Positions 3,851 through 44,580 of a stretch of DNA of 64,000 nt are shown in pieces (the first letter of the stretch is position 1; every line of letters begins with the position of its first letter). The position numbers and the translations under genes are program-made. The notes under the pieces are model-generated. The model made no database searches and was not told the DNA's origin. It saw nothing but the letters and a program-made list of their open reading frames with translations. Source of the stretch: a virus; IMG/VR virus record IMGVR_UViG_3300036852_000742, positions 1 to 64,000 of that record; one strand, 5' to 3'.

Positions 3851-3896
3851 CTCAATCTCCTCCGGCGGGGGCCTCCAGCGGGCCCCTTCACTGACT

Positions 3897-3925
3897 ACAT
3901 TACCCGTGATCGCTTCGCGGGGCAA
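3897..3925 (-). promoter_or_regulatory. Leftward phage promoter P2
   Basis: Minus-strand TTGCCC (3920-3925), a 17-bp spacer and TAATGT (3897-3902). The 5' untranslated stem-loop here has a longer stem, GGGGCC/GGCCCC, around the same CTGGA loop as the other copies, which supports RNA pairing rather than chance. It drives the gene at 3539-3850. Confidence 0.75.
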
Positions 3926-7261: not shown

Positions 7262-7310
7262 GTCCATCTCCTTGGTTGGTTCGGGGGTCCAGCACCCCCT
7301 GCCACTCCCT

Positions 7311-7339
7311 ACACTACCCGCGCGCCACGCGCGGGGCAA
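7311..7339 (-). promoter_or_regulatory. Leftward phage promoter P3
   Basis: Minus-strand TTGCCC (7334-7339), 17 bp, TAGTGT (7311-7316). The CCCGC and GCGGG arms are extended by further complementary bases. A stem-loop GGGGG-TGCTGGA-CCCCC begins a few nucleotides after the expected start point. Confidence 0.75.
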
Positions 7340-8011: not shown

Positions 8012-8716
8012 CTACTTCTTCGGGGGTTGGTGCTTGCGGATCCTGCCGGCCTGGGTGACGGTCTGGGATTCGCCGCAGCCGCTGCACTTGCCGTAGTAGT
8101 TCATGCCCACCCGCCACGCTGCGGCTGTAGGGGCCTTGGTGGAGCCGGGGCAGTGGTCGATGGCCGGCTTGCCGACGGTCCACTCGACCGGGGCTGTCGG
8201 GAAGCACACGGTGCACATGTGCGGGCCCAGCTCGGCGACCGCTTCGGCTTCGGTCTTGCCCGACAACTTCGGGTTCCAGCCATGGTCTGTGGTGGGCTGG
8301 CGGGAGCAGCGGCGGCTGGAGATGTCGCAGTGGATGTGCCCGCCGGGGACCACGAAGAACCGTGACCAGCCGCCGCGCCGGGTGAACTCGGCGTCTAGGA
8401 CGGCCTGCTCGGCGGCGAGGGCAGCCAGTGTGGTCGTGGCGGTGTCGAAGGCGGCGACGGCTTTGGCCGGGTCGGCCATGTCCCACGGCTTGACCTGGTG
8501 CCCGGCGGCGACTCGGTCGCGGCACTTGGCGATGGCCTGGTCGTCTGTGGTGGGCCAGGTGGGCCGGTTCCGGGAGGCGTGCTGGCGGTGCTCACCGAGC
8601 GCGCGGTGCGCGCCTGCGGCTGCGATTTCCTTGGCCCGCTCGGCCTGGGCCTCTTGGCGGTACAGGTCGGCGAGCTTCTCGTCGATCTCTCGCGGGGTGG
8701 CGGTTGCGAGGTTCAT
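8012..8716 (-). CDS. Zinc-binding hypothetical protein, 234 aa
   Basis: An N-terminal coiled-coil-like stretch (IDEKLADLYRQEAQAERAKE, about residues 10-30) precedes a domain with HIHCDISSRRCSR and a later CTVCFP, then a closing CSGCGE motif. The Cys/His pairs suggest one or two zinc sites. This layout recurs in actinophage proteins of unknown role. The ATG at 8716 has AAGGAG 9 nt upstream and is the first start after promoter P4. Confidence 0.7.
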   Translation of the reverse strand: MNLATATPREIDEKLADLYRQEAQAERAKEIAAAGAHRALGEHRQHASRNRPTWPTTDDQAIAKCRDRVAAGHQVKPWDMADPAKAVAAFDTATTTLAALAAEQAVLDAEFTRRGGWSRFFVVPGGHIHCDISSRRCSRQPTTDHGWNPKLSGKTEAEAVAELGPHMCTVCFPTAPVEWTVGKPAIDHCPGSTKAPTAAAWRVGMNYYGKCSGCGESQTVTQAGRIRKHQPPKK

Positions 8717-9383
8717 GGGTTCTGCTCCTTGGGTTGGGGTCCAGCTCCCCTTCACCTCCTACCTTACCCGCACATGGTGCGCGGGGCAATACGCCAGCCT
8801 CAGGGATTCCCGCCGCGCGGCGGGGCGCTTCGGGGACCTGCGCTAGCGAGACGCCCAGTGGCAGCGGCCCGGAGGAGGCGGAGCCACGAAGTCGGGTTCG
8901 CGGGCGGCGGGCGCACCCGTCCGCGTGGCCGTCCTCGTTGTCGCGCGGGTGCCCGTTGTACGGGCCCCGGTCCGTGATGTGCTGGCCGCACCCGAGCAGG
9001 CCGCCGCACCGCCAGTACACCCGGGCGTCCGAGAACGTCCCGGGCTCGATGCCCGCGACCAGTTGGTACGCCCGCTCCGGCCGCACATACTCCTCAGACC
9101 AGGGGATCTCCAGGAGATCGGCGATCTCCGGCCACGAGGAACCCTCGCCACGCAGTGCGGCGGCGAACTTGTACGCCTGGTCTTGGGCCATGCGGGCTAC
9201 GGTCAGCGCGGCGCGCAGCCCGGCGAGGGGCCGGGGTTCGGGCCAACCGAAGTCCGACTCGGGGCGTATCTTGCGCTCGAACATCTGACCTGCGGGCACA
9301 GCGGCCCTCACAGCCCGGTCGACGACTGTACGGACCTGGGCGAGGTCCACGTCAGGGTCGGCACGCCGGTCGGCGGCGGTCAT
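8592..9383 (-). CDS. HTH-containing protein, uncertain C-terminus
   Basis: Residues 1-160 look normal: a helical N-terminus, a likely helix-turn-helix (GSSWPEIADLLEIPW, about residues 81-95) and a segment CGGLLGCGQHITD suggesting zinc binding, ending HADGCARR. After this the frame becomes low-complexity Arg/Pro, passes through promoter P4 and runs 125 nt into the next gene. In another frame the same stretch reads EPDFVAPPPPGRCHWASR and stops at 8843, a more natural ending. A one-base indel near 8905 or programmed frameshifting is therefore possible; take the last 100 codons with caution. Confidence 0.5.
   Translation of the reverse strand: MTAADRRADPDVDLAQVRTVVDRAVRAAVPAGQMFERKIRPESDFGWPEPRPLAGLRAALTVARMAQDQAYKFAAALRGEGSSWPEIADLLEIPWSEEYVRPERAYQLVAGIEPGTFSDARVYWRCGGLLGCGQHITDRGPYNGHPRDNEDGHADGCARRPRTRLRGSASSGPLPLGVSLAQVPEAPRRAAGIPEAGVLPRAPCAGKVGGEGELDPNPRSRTHEPRNRHPARDRREARRPVPPRGPGRAGQGNRSRRRAPRAR
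8761..8789 (-). promoter_or_regulatory. Leftward phage promoter P4
   Basis: Minus-strand TTGCCC (8784-8789), 17 bp, TAAGGT (8761-8766). The CCCGC/GCGGG arms are joined by an inner GCAC/GTGC pair. The 5' stem-loop GGGG-AGCTGGA-CCCC is at 8736-8750, within a few nucleotides of the expected RNA 5' end. Drives 8012-8716. Confidence 0.78.
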
Positions 9384-10967: not shown

Positions 10968-11009
10968 TTGGGGCTCCTCGGGTGTGGGGTCCAGCTCCCC
11001 TCAACCACT

Positions 11010-11038
11010 ACCTTACCCGCTAGACCGTTGCGGGGCAA
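11010..11038 (-). promoter_or_regulatory. Leftward phage promoter P5
   Basis: Minus-strand TTGCCC (11033-11038), 17 bp, TAAGGT (11010-11015), with CCCGC and GCGGG arms separated by 9 bp. The 5' stem-loop GGGG-AGCTGGA-CCCC follows. Drives the genes at 10722-10967 and 10282-10722. Confidence 0.78.
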
Positions 11039-14652: not shown

Positions 14653-14709
14653 GGGACGTGCCCCCCTTTGGGGTGGGTTGTGTGGGGTCCAGCTCCCCAC
14701 CTAACCGCT

Positions 14710-14738
14710 AGCTTACCCGCTAGATGGTTGCGGGGCAA
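14710..14738 (-). promoter_or_regulatory. Leftward phage promoter P6
   Basis: Minus-strand TTGCCC (14733-14738), 17 bp, TAAGCT (14710-14715), arms CCCGC/GCGGG. The 5' stem-loop GGGG-AGCTGGA-CCCC follows. It overlaps the last codons of the upstream gene at 14713-14934. Drives the DUF932 gene. Confidence 0.78.
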
Positions 14739-19123: not shown

Positions 19124-19152
19124 ATGTTACCCGCGTCATGGATGCGGGGCAA
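19124..19152 (-). promoter_or_regulatory. Leftward phage promoter P7
   Basis: Minus-strand TTGCCC (19147-19152), 17 bp, TAACAT (19124-19129), arms CCCGC/GCGGG separated by 9 bp. Unlike most copies, it lacks the CTGGA stem-loop downstream. Drives 18739-19083 and probably the long operon below it. Confidence 0.75.
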
Positions 19153-22435: not shown

Positions 22436-22957
22436 TCACAGCTCGACCAGGTTCAGGTCCAGCCGGGTGGGGACACCGGCGGCGAGCCCCACAGCCCGGC
22501 ACACCCGTTGCAAGGTGGACAGCAGCGGGTTCGCAGCCACCTCCACAAGGGCTATCGCGTTGCCGGTGACCCCGGCGTGGACGGCGACCGCCGGGCGGGA
22601 CAAACCCCACGCCCGCCGGGCGGCCTCAAGCTGTGCCACCACCAACCACAAGTGGTGCCCGTCGGTGGGGGTCATCGCCGACAGCATCGCCACCGTCGGG
22701 TTCTTGGACAGGTCCGGGAACCCGACGGGGGTCAGCGCCAGCCGTCGGCCAACATCAGCGCAGTAGTTCTGCACTGTGCTGGCGAGCCAGTGCATGGTGG
22801 TCGACGTTTCGAAGTCGAACAGGACGGTCGGGTGCACCCCGCGCCGGGCGGCCATGGCGTCACGGGTCATCAGGTCCCGGCGGGCCGCCACCAGGCAGTC
22901 CCGTAGCTGCCGGCGGGCGTCCGTGTCCGCCGGGTCAATGTCGGGGGTGCGAGTCAC
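22436..22957 (-). CDS. Double XRE-type HTH protein
   Basis: 173 aa with two helix-turn-helix units. The second is clear (LEAARRAWGLSRPAVAVHAG then NAIALVEVAANPLLSTLQRV, about residues 112-155), with the layout of XRE/Cro regulators; the first (LVAARRDLMTRDAMAARRGV, about residues 21-40) is similar but weaker. A repressor-like role is possible and it is a candidate lysis-lysogeny or early regulator; there is no direct evidence for its target. It overlaps the next gene by 4 nt. Confidence 0.65.
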   Translation of the reverse strand: MTRTPDIDPADTDARRQLRDCLVAARRDLMTRDAMAARRGVHPTVLFDFETSTTMHWLASTVQNYCADVGRRLALTPVGFPDLSKNPTVAMLSAMTPTDGHHLWLVVAQLEAARRAWGLSRPAVAVHAGVTGNAIALVEVAANPLLSTLQRVCRAVGLAAGVPTRLDLNLVEL

Positions 22958-26384: not shown

Positions 26385-26539
26385 TGGGGTCAGATCTCCT
26401 CAGTTGTAGTGGGTGACCGCCCCTGTTACCGTTGCAGAACGGTGCAGCCCCCCGGTTGTATCCGTCTCCGCGCAGCCCCCAGTCCTGCAACGCTCAGGGT
26501 TCCAGCCCCTGTTGCAGCGGTCCGGGGGTTGCGTGTTTT

Positions 26540-27006: not shown

Positions 27007-27035
27007 ATTCTATCCGGCCGTGGAACGCGGGGCAA
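27007..27035 (-). promoter_or_regulatory. Leftward phage promoter P8
   Basis: Minus-strand TTGCCC (27030-27035), 17 bp, TAGAAT (27007-27012). The spacer keeps CCCGC but the downstream arm is altered (CCGGA), so this is the least symmetrical copy. It overlaps the last codons of the WhiB gene. Drives the 138-aa HTH protein and the ATPase genes. Confidence 0.65.
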
Positions 27036-27845: not shown

Positions 27846-27897
27846 GGTGGGGGCCTCCCTGGTCTCCGTCTCGGTGGAGGGGCTTGTCCAGCACCCC

Positions 27898-28395
27898 TTA
27901 ACTCTCTACATTACCCGCTACTGGTGGGCGGGGCAATACGCCGTCGGTGGTGAGCCACCCCAACCGACCCCGATACAGCACCGGCCAATCCGCCGGCACC
28001 TGCCACTCCTCCAACTGCCAACCCACCCCCGGGGCTTTGGCCTGCGCCGGATTGGCATGGCACCACGTGTGACACGCCCGGCAGGCGTGCAGCACGTTGA
28101 CCAACTGGTTGTTCAGCTCTTTCGCCGCCCCGTGCCGCCCGCCGTCCTTGCGGCCCTTGCGGTGCGCCGGGTCAACCGCCCGCTCCGTGCATCCATCCCG
28201 CGCGATCTCACACCGGCCGCCGGACCGGGCTGCCAGCCCCCGCATCGCCACCGCCGGCAACGCCGCCTGCACCCGATGCCGCTTGACCGTCCGCGCCGCC
28301 CGCAACGCCACCGTCCGGACCAGCCCGCCCGTACGCGCCAGCGGTTTCCCCGCCGCGAGCGGACCTCCGCGCTTCAACGGCCCGCCCCGCTTCAC
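27898..28395 (-). CDS. HNH endonuclease, 165 aa
   Basis: A basic, repetitive N-terminus (RGGPLKRGGPLAAGKPLART) precedes the nuclease: CEIARDGC, then VDPAHRKGRKDGG (DPAHR is the metal-binding HNH strand-turn), LNNQLVNVLHACRACHTWCH and a C-terminal tail. This matches the HNH signature H-N-H with CxxC zinc support. GTG start at 28395 coupled (GTGA) to the upstream gene. The last codons run into promoter P9. May act in DNA replication, packaging or as a homing enzyme. Confidence 0.78.
   Translation of the reverse strand: MKRGGPLKRGGPLAAGKPLARTGGLVRTVALRAARTVKRHRVQAALPAVAMRGLAARSGGRCEIARDGCTERAVDPAHRKGRKDGGRHGAAKELNNQLVNVLHACRACHTWCHANPAQAKAPGVGWQLEEWQVPADWPVLYRGRLGWLTTDGVLPRPPVAGNVES
27908..27936 (-). 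promoter_or_regulatory. Leftward phage promoter P9
   Basis: Minus-strand TTGCCC (27931-27936), 17 bp, TAATGT (27908-27913), arms CCCGC/GCGGG. A stem-loop GGGG-TGCTGGACAAG-CCCC follows, with the same CTGGA loop. It lies within the 3' end of the HNH gene. Confidence 0.75.
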
Positions 28396-32505: not shown

Positions 32506-32560
32506 GGTCGGGTTTCCGTCTCTGTGTGGGTGGGGGTTTCCAGCTCCCCTTCCGGTGTCC

Positions 32561-32589
32561 ATATTACCCGACGTGGTAGCGCGGGGCAA
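32561..32589 (-). promoter_or_regulatory. Leftward promoter P10L of the divergent pair
   Basis: Minus-strand TTGCCC (32584-32589), 17 bp, TAATAT (32561-32566). The arms are CCCGC and TCGGG. It is divided from the rightward copy P10R by only 17 bp between the two -35 boxes, so a single bound protein could act on both. Confidence 0.75.
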
Positions 32590-32606: not shown

Positions 32607-32635
32607 TTGCCCCGCGCTAGGGCATGGGGTAGCAT
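32607..32635 (+). promoter_or_regulatory. Rightward promoter P10R, the only plus-strand copy
   Basis: Plus-strand TTGCCC (32607-32612), 17 bp, TAGCAT (32630-32635). A stem-loop GGGG-AGCTGGAA-CCCC starts a few nucleotides after the expected start point, as in the leftward copies. It drives the operon from the ArdC-like gene to cas12m and perhaps the CRISPR array. Confidence 0.78.
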
Positions 32636-32685
32636 AGTGGTTGTGAGGGGAGCTGGAACCCCTCCAACTGAGACGGAGAACCGCC

Positions 32686-38358: not shown

Positions 38359-38585
38359 TGCCCACTACAGAGAATGAGCTGCCCACCGTTGTGGAGATGT
38401 TCGTCCGCGCGGACACCCTGATGGACACCGCGCACCGGGCGCTTGCCGACGCGGCCGACTGGCTGCGCTCGGACTGGCAGCCCCTCGGGGCTAGCTTGAC
38501 CGACGCGCAGGCGGCCCGCCGCAGCAAGATGTTCGCCGAGATCGAGGCTGCGATGGCCGCAATCGAAAGGGCCAGGCGCTCATGA
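38358..38585 (+). CDS. Small helical protein before cas12m, 75 aa
   Basis: Helical throughout (VEMFVRADTLMDTAHRALAD, AQAARRSKMFAEIEAAMAAI). Starts with ATG overlapping the previous stop, and its stop overlaps the cas12m start by 4 nt, so the two are translated together. No known family; it could be an accessory partner of the effector, which is an inference from position only. Confidence 0.6.
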   Translation: MPTTENELPTVVEMFVRADTLMDTAHRALADAADWLRSDWQPLGASLTDAQAARRSKMFAEIEAAMAAIERARRS

Positions 38586-40633
38586 TCACAGTTGTGTATC
38601 GGTACGGTGTCGCGTCCTGGTGGCGGGCACCAGAGTGGATCAGCGAGCAACTTCGGCTAGGGCACAACCTCGACAACGACCTTGTCTCGGTTGCCTACGA
38701 GCACGAGGAGGCCAAGGCCGCGCATTGGACGGCGTTCCCGCAGATCGCCGTTCACGAGGCCGCCCTAGCAACAGCCGAGACTGAGGCTGTGGATCTCTTC
38801 GCGCACGTCAAGCAGGTGCGCGGATGGCTGGGCAAGGCCAAACACGACAAGGACAAGCTCCGGGCCGCCGAGCTACGGGTGGACCTTGCCGCTGCGCAGG
38901 CCGATCTGAGGGCCGTCAAGGCCGGCATCGCCGCTCTGAAGTTGGAGCGGCGGACGTCGATCGCCGACGTGTACGAGCAGTCCACGGAGGCCCTGGCCGC
39001 GCTGTCGGACGACCGCAAGGCAAAGATCGGAGCCTTGTACGGGCGGTACTGCGGCAGCGACGGCGCTGAGGACGGCAGCGAGGATGCGGACGTGCTGCAC
39101 TGGGCCAGCTTCAACGCCGCCGTCAAGCACCACGAAACCGCCCGCCAGCGGATGTTGAAGGCGCGTGGTGCCGGGCAGGCCGCCCAGCTCCACTACCACC
39201 GGTGGGACGGCACAGGTGCGGTCACCGTGCAGTTGATGCGCCATGCCTGGTCGCATGGGTGCGCACCGTCGGGTCCTCCGTGGCCGTGCAACCCGGACAA
39301 GCCGCGCCCAAAGGCCGTTGACTGCCCGAACCGGCAGGCCAAAGACCCGGCCCGGTCACCGCAACTCCTCGCTGCCGGCGGCGGGAAATGGGCCAACGTG
39401 TTCCAGCTCAGCCCGTGGTCGCGGGACCCTGTGGCGTGGAAACGCCAGCCCCGTACCGCGCGGCGCGGCACAGCAACCCTGACCCTCAGCGGCGGCCGGC
39501 GCCTTGAGGTCCCCGTCCTCGTTGACCGGGTCCTGCCCGCAACTGCTGACGTACCGCAGGCGCAGCTCGTGCGGTCTGAGGTAGCCGGCCGGATGGTGTG
39601 GCACCTGTGCGTGACGGCGATCCTGCCCGACCCGGAGCCGGTGACCACCGGCCCGACCGTGGCGGTACACCTGGGGTGGCGGCGCCGCCCGGACGGGCAT
39701 GTCCGTGCCGGGGTTGTCCTACCCGACGGGCCACTCCCCCCACCACCCGCCGACCTGCTGCGGGCCGCGTCGTCGAGCCCCGGCCGCACCGGCACCGCCC
39801 CAACCCATGTCCCGCATCACCGCCCGTTCTTGGAACGCCACGACGGCTGGTGGGAAGTTGTCATCCCCGGCCCGATGTGGGACATCGTCGGCCGCCCGTC
39901 GGCAATCCGGGCACGCCGGGATCTCGCCTTCAACGAGATCCGGGACGTGCTGGTCAGGTGGTTGGATGAGCACCCGGAGCACGCCGACCCGCTGGGGCTC
40001 GACCTGGCCCGGGTCAAACTGTGGCGGGTGCCACGGGCACTGGCCGGCCTGGTACGACGGTGGGCCAGCGACGCGCAACTACCGGCCCTGTTCGCCGCGC
40101 AGTTGCTCCCCGACCTGGTCGCCTGGTGGCGACGGGACCTGCACCTGTACCGGTACGAAGTCGGCGAACGCCACGACCTGGCCGCCCGCCGTGACGACGT
40201 GTGGGGACAGATCGGGGCATGGCTCGGCCGGTCAGCCGGCCGGGTCCTCGTCGGGGACGAGGACTACCGGGCGCTGCGCCGACGCACCAGCATCGTCGAC
40301 GACGACATGAGCGCACCGACCGAAAGGGTCGATGAGGCGGTCCGTGCCCGCGCGGCCTTCGCCGTACCGGGGCTGCTACGCGCAGCGCTGACCAACGGCG
40401 CGAGCCGGCGCGGCGTGACCGTGGCGAAAGTCCCGGCAGCGTGGGCCACCCGGGAACACCACGAATGCGGCCATGTCGCGACCGGTGACGACGACCAGTA
40501 CAGGGAGCGGATCGTGGTGACCTGCCCTGGTTGCCAGGTTGCCTACGACCAGGACCGCAACGCGGTGCTGGTGATGCTGGAACGCGAGCGGGCCGGTAGC
40601 ACGGGGGCGAAGGGGGACCGCTCGCAGCCCTGA
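38582..40633 (+). CDS. cas12m: Cas12m (type V-M CRISPR effector)
   Basis: 683 aa. The N-terminus EQLRLGHNLDNDLV and GQAAQLHYHRWDGTG (198-212) match, from memory, Cas12m (C2c4/V-U1) proteins of mycobacteria. RuvC-I reads TVAVHLGW (359-366), with His in place of the usual catalytic Asp; this is a shared Cas12m hallmark. RuvC-II is VGDED (557-561, Asp not Glu). A zinc finger ECGH...CPGC (628-651) precedes RuvC-III YDQD (655-658). Cas12m is known to bind DNA at a TTN PAM and block transcription without cutting it. Length is slightly above the family norm, with a Cys-bearing insert near 221-250. Last gene of the rightward operon, with an array 128 bp downstream. Confidence 0.9.
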   Translation: MITVVYRYGVASWWRAPEWISEQLRLGHNLDNDLVSVAYEHEEAKAAHWTAFPQIAVHEAALATAETEAVDLFAHVKQVRGWLGKAKHDKDKLRAAELRVDLAAAQADLRAVKAGIAALKLERRTSIADVYEQSTEALAALSDDRKAKIGALYGRYCGSDGAEDGSEDADVLHWASFNAAVKHHETARQRMLKARGAGQAAQLHYHRWDGTGAVTVQLMRHAWSHGCAPSGPPWPCNPDKPRPKAVDCPNRQAKDPARSPQLLAAGGGKWANVFQLSPWSRDPVAWKRQPRTARRGTATLTLSGGRRLEVPVLVDRVLPATADVPQAQLVRSEVAGRMVWHLCVTAILPDPEPVTTGPTVAVHLGWRRRPDGHVRAGVVLPDGPLPPPPADLLRAASSSPGRTGTAPTHVPHHRPFLERHDGWWEVVIPGPMWDIVGRPSAIRARRDLAFNEIRDVLVRWLDEHPEHADPLGLDLARVKLWRVPRALAGLVRRWASDAQLPALFAAQLLPDLVAWWRRDLHLYRYEVGERHDLAARRDDVWGQIGAWLGRSAGRVLVGDEDYRALRRRTSIVDDDMSAPTERVDEAVRARAAFAVPGLLRAALTNGASRRGVTVAKVPAAWATREHHECGHVATGDDDQYRERIVVTCPGCQVAYDQDRNAVLVMLERERAGSTGAKGDRSQP

Positions 40634-40761
40634 CCGCGCAGGCCAAGGGTTAGTGTCAGCACCGAGAACGGGGCCATAACTCCACAGTGGACAAGTGTCC
40701 AGGGGAGCACTCGCGACGATCTACGTTTGCGCTGCTCAACCTGCGGCTTTTTCCCCAAGCC
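40634..40761 (+). other. Leader-like segment between cas12m and array
   Basis: 128 bp without a gene. It is less GC-rich than its surroundings towards the array, with a T-run (CTTTTTCC at about 40747-40754) just before repeat 1, and no clear promoter of the phage TTGCCC family. The array may be read through from the cas12m operon or from an unseen promoter here. Confidence 0.45.
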
Positions 40762-42615
40762 GTGGCAATGGCGATCGCAGCGCCCTTTCTCTGCGAGCCA
40801 CATGGTGAGCTTGCACGGCCAGACAATGATCTCGTGGCAATGGCGATCGCAGCGCCCTTTCTCTGCGAGGCGTCAGGACGTCAGCTACTACAGGTCTCCG
40901 TCCGAGTGACAACGGCGAGCGCAGCGCCTCGAACTCTGCGAGCGGCCATGTCTACAGAGGCCGGCGCATCGTCGGTTCGACGCGACAATGGCGAGCGCAG
41001 CGCCTCTTTCTCTGCGAGTGCGCCATGGGTTTACGCGGACTCCTGGCGAGGTACGTGACGACGGCGAGCGCAGCGCCTCAAATCTGCGAGGTCCGGGCTG
41101 TCGCGTTCGTCATGGGTGACGAACGCGATCGCAGCGATCCTTCTCTGCGAGTACGTCGACGACTCCGGCGCCGAGGCGAGGCGGTTCAAGTGGCAATGGC
41201 GATCGCAGCGCCCAAAGACTGCGAGCTTAGCTCCTCGTCGTAGTACCCCTGCACTGCAAGGTGGCAATGGCGAGCGCAGCGCCTGAAATCTGCGAGCCGG
41301 TGATTCGGTGCGGCCGGCGTTGGGTGGTACCTGCATGTGACCATGGCGAGCGCAGCGCCTCAACTCTGCGAGAAGGGGCAGGGCCTGTCGCGCGTACCAG
41401 GCCCGCGCGGTGACCATGGCGAGCGCAGCGCCTCAACTCTGCGAGTCCCGCCAGCTTGACTACCCGCTAGCCTGGATCAGGCCGGTGACCATGGCGAGCG
41501 CAGCGCCTCAACTCTGCGAGTCTCCACCGGCGTCATGCTCACTTCGCGCAACCCCAAGGTGACCATGGCGAGCGCAGCGCCTCAACTCTGCGAGGAGGGT
41601 CTCCCGTAGCAGCTCGGTGCAGCGTGACAACGGCGAGCGCAGCGCCTGAAATCTGCGACGCTATATCGTGAAGCAGGCGCACCATTATGAGCGTGGTGAC
41701 AATGGCGAGCGCAGCGCCCCTCTTTCTGCGAGTACCTGAACCACGCCCGAGCGGCTTCCGTTGCCTGCGGCGTAGCAACGGCGAGCGCAGCGCCCTTTTT
41801 CTGCGAGTGCGTGTGCGGCGAGGCCGCAGTACTGACGCGACAGTGGCGAGCGCAGCGCCTAAAACCTGCGACTTGGTATCCCGATCCAGGCGGCCCGTGA
41901 GACCGCGTAAGTGACAACGGCGACCGCAGCGCCCTTTCTCTGCGAGGCTGCAATGAGTAACTACATGGATGTCCGGCGCAGGTAACGATGGTGATCGCAG
42001 CACCTCAAAACTGCGAGTGGATGGTCCCGATGTTGGTCGTGATCGAGGGCGCCGCGCGTGACAATGGTGATCGCAGCACCTCAAACTGCGAGGTCGTCAG
42101 CCGCACGGACGCGGCAAGGTTTGAGACCATGAGCGACAATGGCGATCACAGCGCCTCAAAACCTGCGAGCTGGATGCGGCGGCGGAGCATCTCCGCGTCG
42201 CGCGTACCGGCGACAATGGCGATCACAGCGACCACAAACTGTGAGATCCTCTCAACCGGTGCTAGCTTGCGCGCGACCGGTTGCGTGACGATGGTGATCG
42301 CAGCGCCCAAAACCTGCGAGCACGGCAGCGCCTCCAGCCCGACCGGTTGCGCGACGACGGTGAGCGCAGCACCCAAGAAGACACTGCGAGTTCGAGTACG
42401 TGTCGGCTCCTCCAAGGGCGACATGGGCGACGATGGTGAGCGCAGCGCCCAAAGTCTGCGAGTGATGGGGTGGCGCGAGCAGTACGACCGCATGCAGGTG
42501 GCAATGGCAATGGCGATCGCAGCGCCCAAAACCTGCGAGTCCATAGCTTGGATGGGTTACCACTCCGCGCTACGGCGCGACAACGGTGATCGCAGCGCCC
42601 CAACGATCCTGCGAG
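40762..42615 (+). CRISPR. CRISPR array with 26 degenerate repeats, 25 spacers
   Basis: Repeats are usually 36 nt (range 35-42), begin G(T/C)GRCAATGGCGA-like and end CTGCGAG; spacers are 25-40 nt, mostly 35-40. Repeat starts: 40762, 40834, 40906, 40982, 41055, 41116, 41190, 41261, 41337, 41410, 41485, 41559, 41624, 41696, 41772, 41837, 41911, 41982, 42058, 42133, 42210, 42285, 42351, 42427, 42498, 42577. Repeats 1 and 2 are identical and repeats 9-12 are identical; others vary. Each holds CGCAG and CTGCG (stem) around a variable loop. Same direction as cas12m. Repeats 13 and 16 end CTGCGAC. Confidence 0.9.
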
Positions 42616-43339: not shown

Positions 43340-43480
43340 TTGACATCCTCCCCCGTCTAAGGGCGGGGGATTCCAACTGCAAGCGGTTGAGGTTCACGGG
43401 CGCTCAACGCCTTGCGGCGTGTCGCCCCTCCGGCACGAGACGGTTGTCTCGGGACTGGTGTGCAGTCCTGTCCTGCCGCG
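43340..43480 (-). ncRNA. Putative omega RNA (reRNA) of tnpB
   Basis: In this family a guide RNA is made from the 3' end of tnpB through the hairpin end, with a guide taken from the sequence just outside the element (here about 43320-43339). Only the hairpin and gene order support this; the start of the RNA is unknown. Confidence 0.4.
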
Positions 43481-44580
43481 ATGTTGATGCTGGCGTTGTG
43501 GTCGGCGTTGCAGGTAAAGCCGCAGGCGGTGCAACAGAATCGGGCTTGGCTCTCGCGCGAGTTCTTGTCGATCCATCCGCAGGCACTGCAACGCAGGCTG
43601 GTGTAGGCGGCTTTGACTTTCTGGACGCGGCCGGGGGCTTTGTCTTCGGTGCGCCGGGCGAGCATGCCCCACCCGGACGCGAGGATGGCCCGGTTCAGGC
43701 CGGCCTTCTGCCGGACGTTGCGGCCGGGGCTATCGACGGTGCCCCTTGCGGTCGCGGTCATGTTCTTGATCCGCAGGTCTTCGAGGCGGATCACGTCGAA
43801 CCGGCGGGCGAATGCGGTGCTGGTTTTCTCGGTCCAGTCCTTGCGGATGTCCGCCTCGCGTGCCTTGAGCCGTGCGATCCGCTGACGCTCAACCTGCACT
43901 ACCTCGGACCGCTTCGGTGCCCGAGCCTTGCGCCGTTCTGCCTTACGCAGTCGGGCCCGCTCTTTGCTGGACAGGCGAGGGCAGGCCAGTGTTTCGCCCG
44001 TGCTCAACGCGGCCGTGATGGTCACGCCCCGGTCGACGCCGACAACCGTTCCGTTTCCGGGAGACTCGATCGGGTCGGGGATGACCGCGAACGCGACGTG
44101 CCAACGCCCGGAGCGGTCACAGGTGATGCGGTACGACTTGCATGCCGCAACGGATCGCGACCAGCGGAACCGAACCCAGCCAACCTTGGGAACCTTGACC
44201 TGACCCCAGTGTCGGTTCAGCCGTTGGACATGGAGTCCGAAGGTGAAGTCGGTGATCCGGAAGCCTTCGTGGACGTACTTGCTGCGCCACGTCGGCCGCA
44301 TGTGGGCGCCCGTAAAGAAGTTGGCCATGGCTTGGGCGTAGTCGCGCAGAGCCTGTTGCTGGACGTTAACCGAACCGGCGGCGAGCCACGGCTCGGCGGT
44401 GCGCGCTTCGGTGAGTTGGCGGCACTGGACGACGAAGCTGGGGGCCGACCGACGGGCACGCGCGGGCGTCCACCACGCTCCCTGTTCAACGGCCAGATTC
44501 CAGACGTACCGGGCGTCACCGCAGTGCGACAGAAGGGTCGCCTCCTGCGCCACGGTCGGGTACAGCCGATACCTGGACAT
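43357..44580 (-). CDS. tnpB: TnpB RNA-guided nuclease
   Basis: 407 aa. VGVDRG (D183), RLEDL (E267) and CNADHNA (D360) are the three RuvC catalytic residues, all intact. The zinc ribbon CSAC...CTAC (C331, C334, C350, C353) sits between the last two, and the C-terminal residues are coded inside the hairpin end, as is usual. The ATG at 44580 matches MSRYRLYPT, the common TnpB start. It probably makes an active RNA-guided nuclease for element retention. Cas12 effectors derive from TnpB, and a Cas12m gene lies about 3 kb away. Confidence 0.9.
   Translation of the reverse strand: MSRYRLYPTVAQEATLLSHCGDARYVWNLAVEQGAWWTPARARRSAPSFVVQCRQLTEARTAEPWLAAGSVNVQQQALRDYAQAMANFFTGAHMRPTWRSKYVHEGFRITDFTFGLHVQRLNRHWGQVKVPKVGWVRFRWSRSVAACKSYRITCDRSGRWHVAFAVIPDPIESPGNGTVVGVDRGVTITAALSTGETLACPRLSSKERARLRKAERRKARAPKRSEVVQVERQRIARLKAREADIRKDWTEKTSTAFARRFDVIRLEDLRIKNMTATARGTVDSPGRNVRQKAGLNRAILASGWGMLARRTEDKAPGRVQKVKAAYTSLRCSACGWIDKNSRESQARFCCTACGFTCNADHNASINIAAGQDCTPVPRQPSRAGGATRRKALSAREPQPLAVGIPRP

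Follow-up and report, generated by a model that had tools for sequence, protein, structure and literature searches.

Recurrent hairpins with a constant GCUGGA loop point to a possible common RNA signal for joint control of a dozen early gene groups in a novel actinobacterial phage

Cluster K mycobacteriophages carry start-associated sequences, SAS and ESAS (Pope et al. 2011, PMC3203893; PMC11373665). SAS have a GGG-N7-CCC outline and occur in many copies before non-structural genes (PMC3203893), and in ESAS an imperfect inverted repeat overlaps a SigA-like promoter (PMC11373665). The SAS of actinobacteriophages have been known since 2011, and their function is not established (PMC3203893); a DUF3310 protein has been proposed for SAS (PMC11373665). 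In M. smegmatis, a stem-loop placed directly after the start point raises reporter output threefold, and in DrrS at least two extra 5' nucleotides already disturb stabilisation by the stem-loop (PMC5360333). SAS and the hairpin described here have a common 5'-GGG-N7-CCC outline.

The DNA analysed here (the window, 64,000 nucleotides) is the part from position 1 to 64000 of a virus record 81,120 bases long. The genome has 69% GC and many small genes. The tail, head, and terminase genes of the record are kin to those of actinobacteriophages, and the source is a novel actinobacterial phage. The window also contains an apparent phage-encoded type V-M CRISPR system (38582-42612), with a 683 amino acid Cas12m-like protein (Cas12m2, PDB 8hhl, E 3.7e-73; Cas12u1 in PADLOC, E 7e-103). 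Directly after this gene is a 26-unit array whose repeats of ~37 nt are unusually divergent among themselves and whose spacers, also ~37 nt, are mostly unique; among phage records, blastn with the array revealed no convincing target for any spacer. A TnpB / IS605 OrfB-like gene (43357-44580) is close to the array.

Hairpin copies and the promoter family

The record contains 14 nearly identical promoters with a -35 box TTGCCC, a spacing of exactly 17 bp, and a -10 box TANNNT, found with the pattern TTGCCCCGC-N-GGGTA; the hairpin was not used in the query. The cassette consensus is TTGCCCCGC-N9-GCGGGTANNNT. A CCCGC/GCGGG dyad overlaps the -35 and -10 boxes, with five of five pairs in 9 of the 14 copies, and at the 72905 promoter (plus strand) both half-sites have changed together. 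The dyad is probably a repressor operator. The product of 22436-22957 has a weak helix-turn-helix match.

In 11 of the 14 promoters, GCTGG[A/G] (GCTGGG once) begins 15-18 nt past the end of the -10 box (binomial P ~2e-18, with a chance of 0.015 per placement window), and its flanks form complementary arms, mostly GGGG/CCCC. The constant loop and its linkage to promoters, both claimed in the first-pass annotation, are thus upheld, and the copies named there are present. Among them, GGGG-AGCTGGA-CCCC is found on the minus strand at 8736-8750 just as described; it lies 20 nt upstream of the gene start (8716) and is served by a TTGCCC-17-TAAGGT promoter with the CCCGC/GCGGG dyad (8761-8789, minus strand). 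The gene behind it (8012-8716, minus strand) encodes a 234 amino acid product homologous to Cluster K phage CrimD gp38 and Fionnbharth gp91 (44% identity), and Microbacterium phage NarutoRun also has a homologue.

Other minus-strand hairpins, given with the -10 box and position of the adjoining TTGCCC-17 promoter, are GGGGG-AGCTGGA-CCCCC at 854-870 (TAGTAT, 882-910), GGGGCC-CGCTGGA-GGCCCC at 3868-3886 (TAATGT, 3897-3925), GGGGG-TGCTGGA-CCCCC at 7283-7299 (TAGTGT, 7311-7339), GGGG-AGCTGGA-CCCC at 10986-11000 (TAAGGT, 11010-11038), GTGGGG-AGCTGGA-CCCCAC at 14682-14700 (TAAGCT, 14710-14738), AGGGG-TGCTGGACAAG-CCCCT with an enlarged loop at 27878-27898 (TAATGT, 27908-27936), and GGGG-AGCTGGAAA-CCCC at 32533-32549 (TAATAT, 32561-32589). 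The last promoter is divergent from a plus-strand one at 32607-32635 (TAGCAT), which is followed by GAGGGG-AGCTGGAA-CCCCTC at 32645-32664 (plus strand). Three further plus-strand hairpins are found beyond the window, near 72178, 72567, and 72946; the 72178 copy has only three Watson-Crick pairs. A covariance model built on 12 copies (the 11 linked to promoters and the 72567 copy) recovers those 12, including each match listed here, at E values between 8e-8 and 0.003 and gives no 13th match (next best E=0.45). The 10-mer GCTGGACCCC occurs five times in the window against 0.40 expected, a count that none of 100 shuffles reach.

All 12 hairpins are intergenic, sense to the next gene, and ~18-33 nt upstream of its start codon. 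Downstream of the hairpin, an A/C-rich linker leads to an open Shine-Dalgarno sequence and then to the start codon. Only non-structural genes have a hairpin in front of them; the structural genes at 45-70 kb have none. Measured against the downstream start codon, the loop is in frame 0, 1, or 2 depending on the copy, so the element is not coding. GTG or TTG is often found at the predicted start point; a coding leader peptide or leaderless start was rejected, given that the frame varies relative to the gene and no peptide is common to the copies.

Hairpin and promoter also occur apart. The pattern search gave one site on the plus strand (72551) that has a -35-like box and no -10 box. This 72551-72584 cassette combines the box with a perfect hairpin (72567), sits within an operon, and looks like a deletion of the -10 region; since hairpin and loop persist there in the absence of a -10 box, the element is separable from the promoter. 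Conversely, promoters of the TTGCCC family are found without a hairpin at 19124-19152 (minus strand) and without a GCTGGA hairpin at 27007-27035 (minus strand) and at record position 74381 (plus strand, outside the window). The 74381 promoter and the minus-strand promoter at 11038 have most of their spacer in common and only the latter has the hairpin, which also marks the hairpin as a separable module. An intergenic hairpin at 26472-26511 (minus strand), CTGCAA-CAGGG-GCTGGAA-CCCTG-agcg-TTGCAG, contains GCTGGA and has no promoter cassette; further short repeats surround it.

The plain kinship of some cassettes, such as the two with similar spacers, and the absence of the hairpin from 3 of the 14 promoters would fit a sequence with no function of its own that was copied along with the promoter cassette. 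Between copies, however, GCTGGA is 97% identical, the 9-nt promoter spacer 29%, and the 12 nt of linker after the hairpin 36%. With spacer and linker diverged to near randomness, recent duplication does not explain the fixed loop, which argues that the loop is under selection. Simple copying appears already disfavoured by this pattern, and we consider it very improbable.

Searches of IMG/VR, GTDB genome contigs, and phage and plasmid records found no second genome with the cassette. Among IMG/VR viral contigs, the promoter-plus-hairpin pattern gave one chance match only, in an unrelated contig, and the promoter pattern alone gave none; the prokaryotic GTDB genome contigs gave two chance matches only. 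By blastn against phages and plasmids, the cassette at 8789 had weak unrelated matches only, one of them to a palindrome of a Streptomyces plasmid. The closest relative by terminase (74%) lacks the promoter cassette, and three early proteins searched against viral contigs had no relatives there. NarutoRun has its own repeated promoter family (GTAGCGAA...CTGCAT...GTATAGT), in some cases followed by unrelated hairpins that have no common loop.

Stem pairing and position in the leader

The earlier claim was that the stems change together while the loop stays, so that RNA structure is selected, and a covariation test on all copies was proposed. We ran this test on 12 copies from one genome, the sample behind all statistics here. 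In an alignment fitted to the structure, which favours a positive outcome, 72.9% of cells are paired; the figure for shuffles is 63.7%, and none of 500 attains the observed value. The covariation score is 0.134 against 0.050 (reached by 9 of 500). The true register is the best among slides of -3 to +3. An arm-swap test between copies gave P 0.05 by pair count and 0.10 by energy; exchanging arms lowers pairing only slightly because most copies have the same GGGG/CCCC.

The clearest compensating change is at 3868-3886, where CC and GG were gained on opposite arms, making two extra complementary pairs beside the loop. Outer pairs were added at 14682 (GT/AC), 32645 (GA/TC), and 27878 (A/T), and there are extra G-C pairs at 854, 7283, and 72567. 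Joint change of the stems therefore holds for these few copies, but the GGG/CCC core hardly varies. The stems of P1 and P6, at 5 and 6 bp, are longer than the GGGG/CCCC given in the first-pass annotation. Loop size is 7-11 nt, with enlargement on the 3' side. A third of this GC-rich genome's intergenic 26-mers match or exceed several 4-bp copies in stability, and for some copies, including the one at 8736-8750, the complete predicted leader has a fold of lower energy than the hairpin. The covariation is real yet modest, and we conclude with moderate confidence that the structure is selected.

The near-invariance of the GGG/CCC core, the tight promoter spacing, and the weak arm-swap result would also suit an element acting as DNA. 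In that case the GGGGNGCTGGA block near +5 to +15 would bind a DNA-binding regulator or tune promoter escape, and complementarity of the arms would be a by-product of a partly palindromic site. The half-sites, however, are 7, 8, 9, or 11 nt apart, a variation more easily reconciled with an RNA loop than with a site for a DNA dimer, and the loop itself is asymmetric; additions are paired on both arms, and the covariation score exceeds that of the shuffles. We regard action at the DNA level as rather improbable.

The 5'-terminal position of the hairpin is predicted from the -10 box. With a start 6-8 nt past this box, the stem would be at about +3 to +7, after an unpaired leader of ~2-6 nt. The gap between -10 box and stem is 9-12 nt (the stem begins 10-13 nt after the box, by copy), so the leader would differ in length from copy to copy. 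A short leader is what one would expect if the hairpin were only a 5'-terminal stabiliser, whose stem shields the 5' end against pyrophosphohydrolase and RNase E/J and whose loop has no partner, and M. tuberculosis offers a precedent in a 5-bp GC-rich 5' stem-loop with long RNA life (PMC5360333). However, the range of gaps here is at odds with the sensitivity of DrrS to two extra 5' nucleotides (PMC5360333), four-bp copies are not unusually stable, the 72567 copy is internal to an operon and has no -10 box, and a stabiliser does not require a constant loop. Together, the variable leader, weak 4-bp copies, internal copy, and constant loop argue for more than end protection, which we think unlikely as the sole role.

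Candidate mechanisms and search for a partner

The loop is in tight register with the promoter, 15-18 nt after the -10 box, and stands before multigene operons. This arrangement is compatible with a nascent-RNA signal to RNA polymerase, acting soon after initiation against pausing or termination, much as HK022 put or lambda nut does, and put RNA works just past its promoter with no dedicated protein (PMC9378689). A single hairpin of 4-6 bp is nevertheless far from the ~70-nt, two-stem put; Rfam 15 gave no matches above gathering score in the window, and one copy is internal. Long read-through also seems less needed where each unit has its own promoter. A polymerase signal is in our judgement improbable.

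The explanation we prefer, held tentatively and at a little less than an even chance, is that the element is a cis-acting leader RNA operator whose loop is read by a trans factor. The fixed loop sequence, which simple protection does not need, indicates such a factor. We infer both action as RNA and recognition of the loop by a phage or host factor from patterns in the DNA. About 12 transcription units would carry the element in their 5' leader, nearly all starting at one type of cassette, and the GCUGGA loop would be displayed on a 4-6 bp hairpin located in about the first 5-20 nt of the RNA. A phage or host factor may bind this loop and so co-regulate translation or stability of non-structural genes, with some added stability from the structured 5' end as a likely side benefit.

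A broader version, which is possible but doubtful, is a phage RNA regulon: a phage-encoded or captured host RNA-binding factor would recognise the GCUGGA hairpin and switch non-structural operons post-transcriptionally as a set, atop the common promoter and operator. Pfam scans of most early proteins found no RNA-binding family or candidate partner; the DUF3310 protein was not among the early proteins scanned. CsrA/RsmA sites likewise present GGA in a hairpin loop near the Shine-Dalgarno sequence, but their loop is ANGGA and here it is GCUGGA, with the Shine-Dalgarno sequence left uncovered by the hairpin. CsrA (PF02599) is absent from the virus record and present in 3 of 14 control genomes. 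A CsrA regulon was rejected on the lack of CsrA in the record.

Comparison with known leader elements

The 5' stabilising stem-loops of E. coli ompA/papA and M. tuberculosis DrrS (PMC5360333) likewise have a short GC-rich stem near the predicted 5' end. They are single-gene elements with no loop common to different transcripts, whereas here one loop recurs in 12 copies after a predicted leader of variable length. HK022 putL and lambda nut are, like this hairpin, promoter-proximal phage RNA structures before early genes; in place of the two stems of put, we see one short hairpin followed by the A/C-rich linker and no two-stem unit.

The closest parallel is with SAS and ESAS. Both SAS and the phage hairpin are multicopy, limited to the non-structural part of the genome, upstream of start codons, and in one orientation relative to transcription (all 12 hairpins are sense). 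The TTGCCC-17-TANNNT promoter with its CCCGC/GCGGG dyad has the organisation of ESAS, in a sequence unrelated to the Cluster K consensus. The 13-bp SAS consensus is GGGATAGGAGCCC, whereas the 12 copies here read GGG(G)-NGCTGG(A/G)-(C)CCC. SAS contains the Shine-Dalgarno sequence (AGGAG) a few nt from the start codon; here the Shine-Dalgarno sequence is separate and the hairpin ~18-33 nt away. Of 44 SAS sites in three Cluster K genomes, 38 have one and the same sequence, and the others have no compensating arm changes. SAS arms are thus nearly invariant, in contrast to the promoter-proximal hairpin here, with stems of 4-6 bp and its GCTGGA loop. The genes for CrimD gp38 and Fionnbharth gp91, homologues of the gene at 8012-8716, sit behind SAS, with TTGACA promoter-like ESAS upstream.

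The element parallels SAS/ESAS in architecture but not in sequence, and it is not a SAS member. Under the regulon reading, Cluster K SAS may have arisen by convergence as a similar element. If an RNA-binding phage protein does read the hairpin, phages would have, as far as we know, a new way of controlling early genes globally. The GCUGGA family offers 12 natural variants in which the loop is invariant, the hairpin clear, and the Shine-Dalgarno sequence separate. The roles of loop, stem, promoter, and ribosome binding, which are fused in SAS, are separated here, making the question directly testable with reporters.
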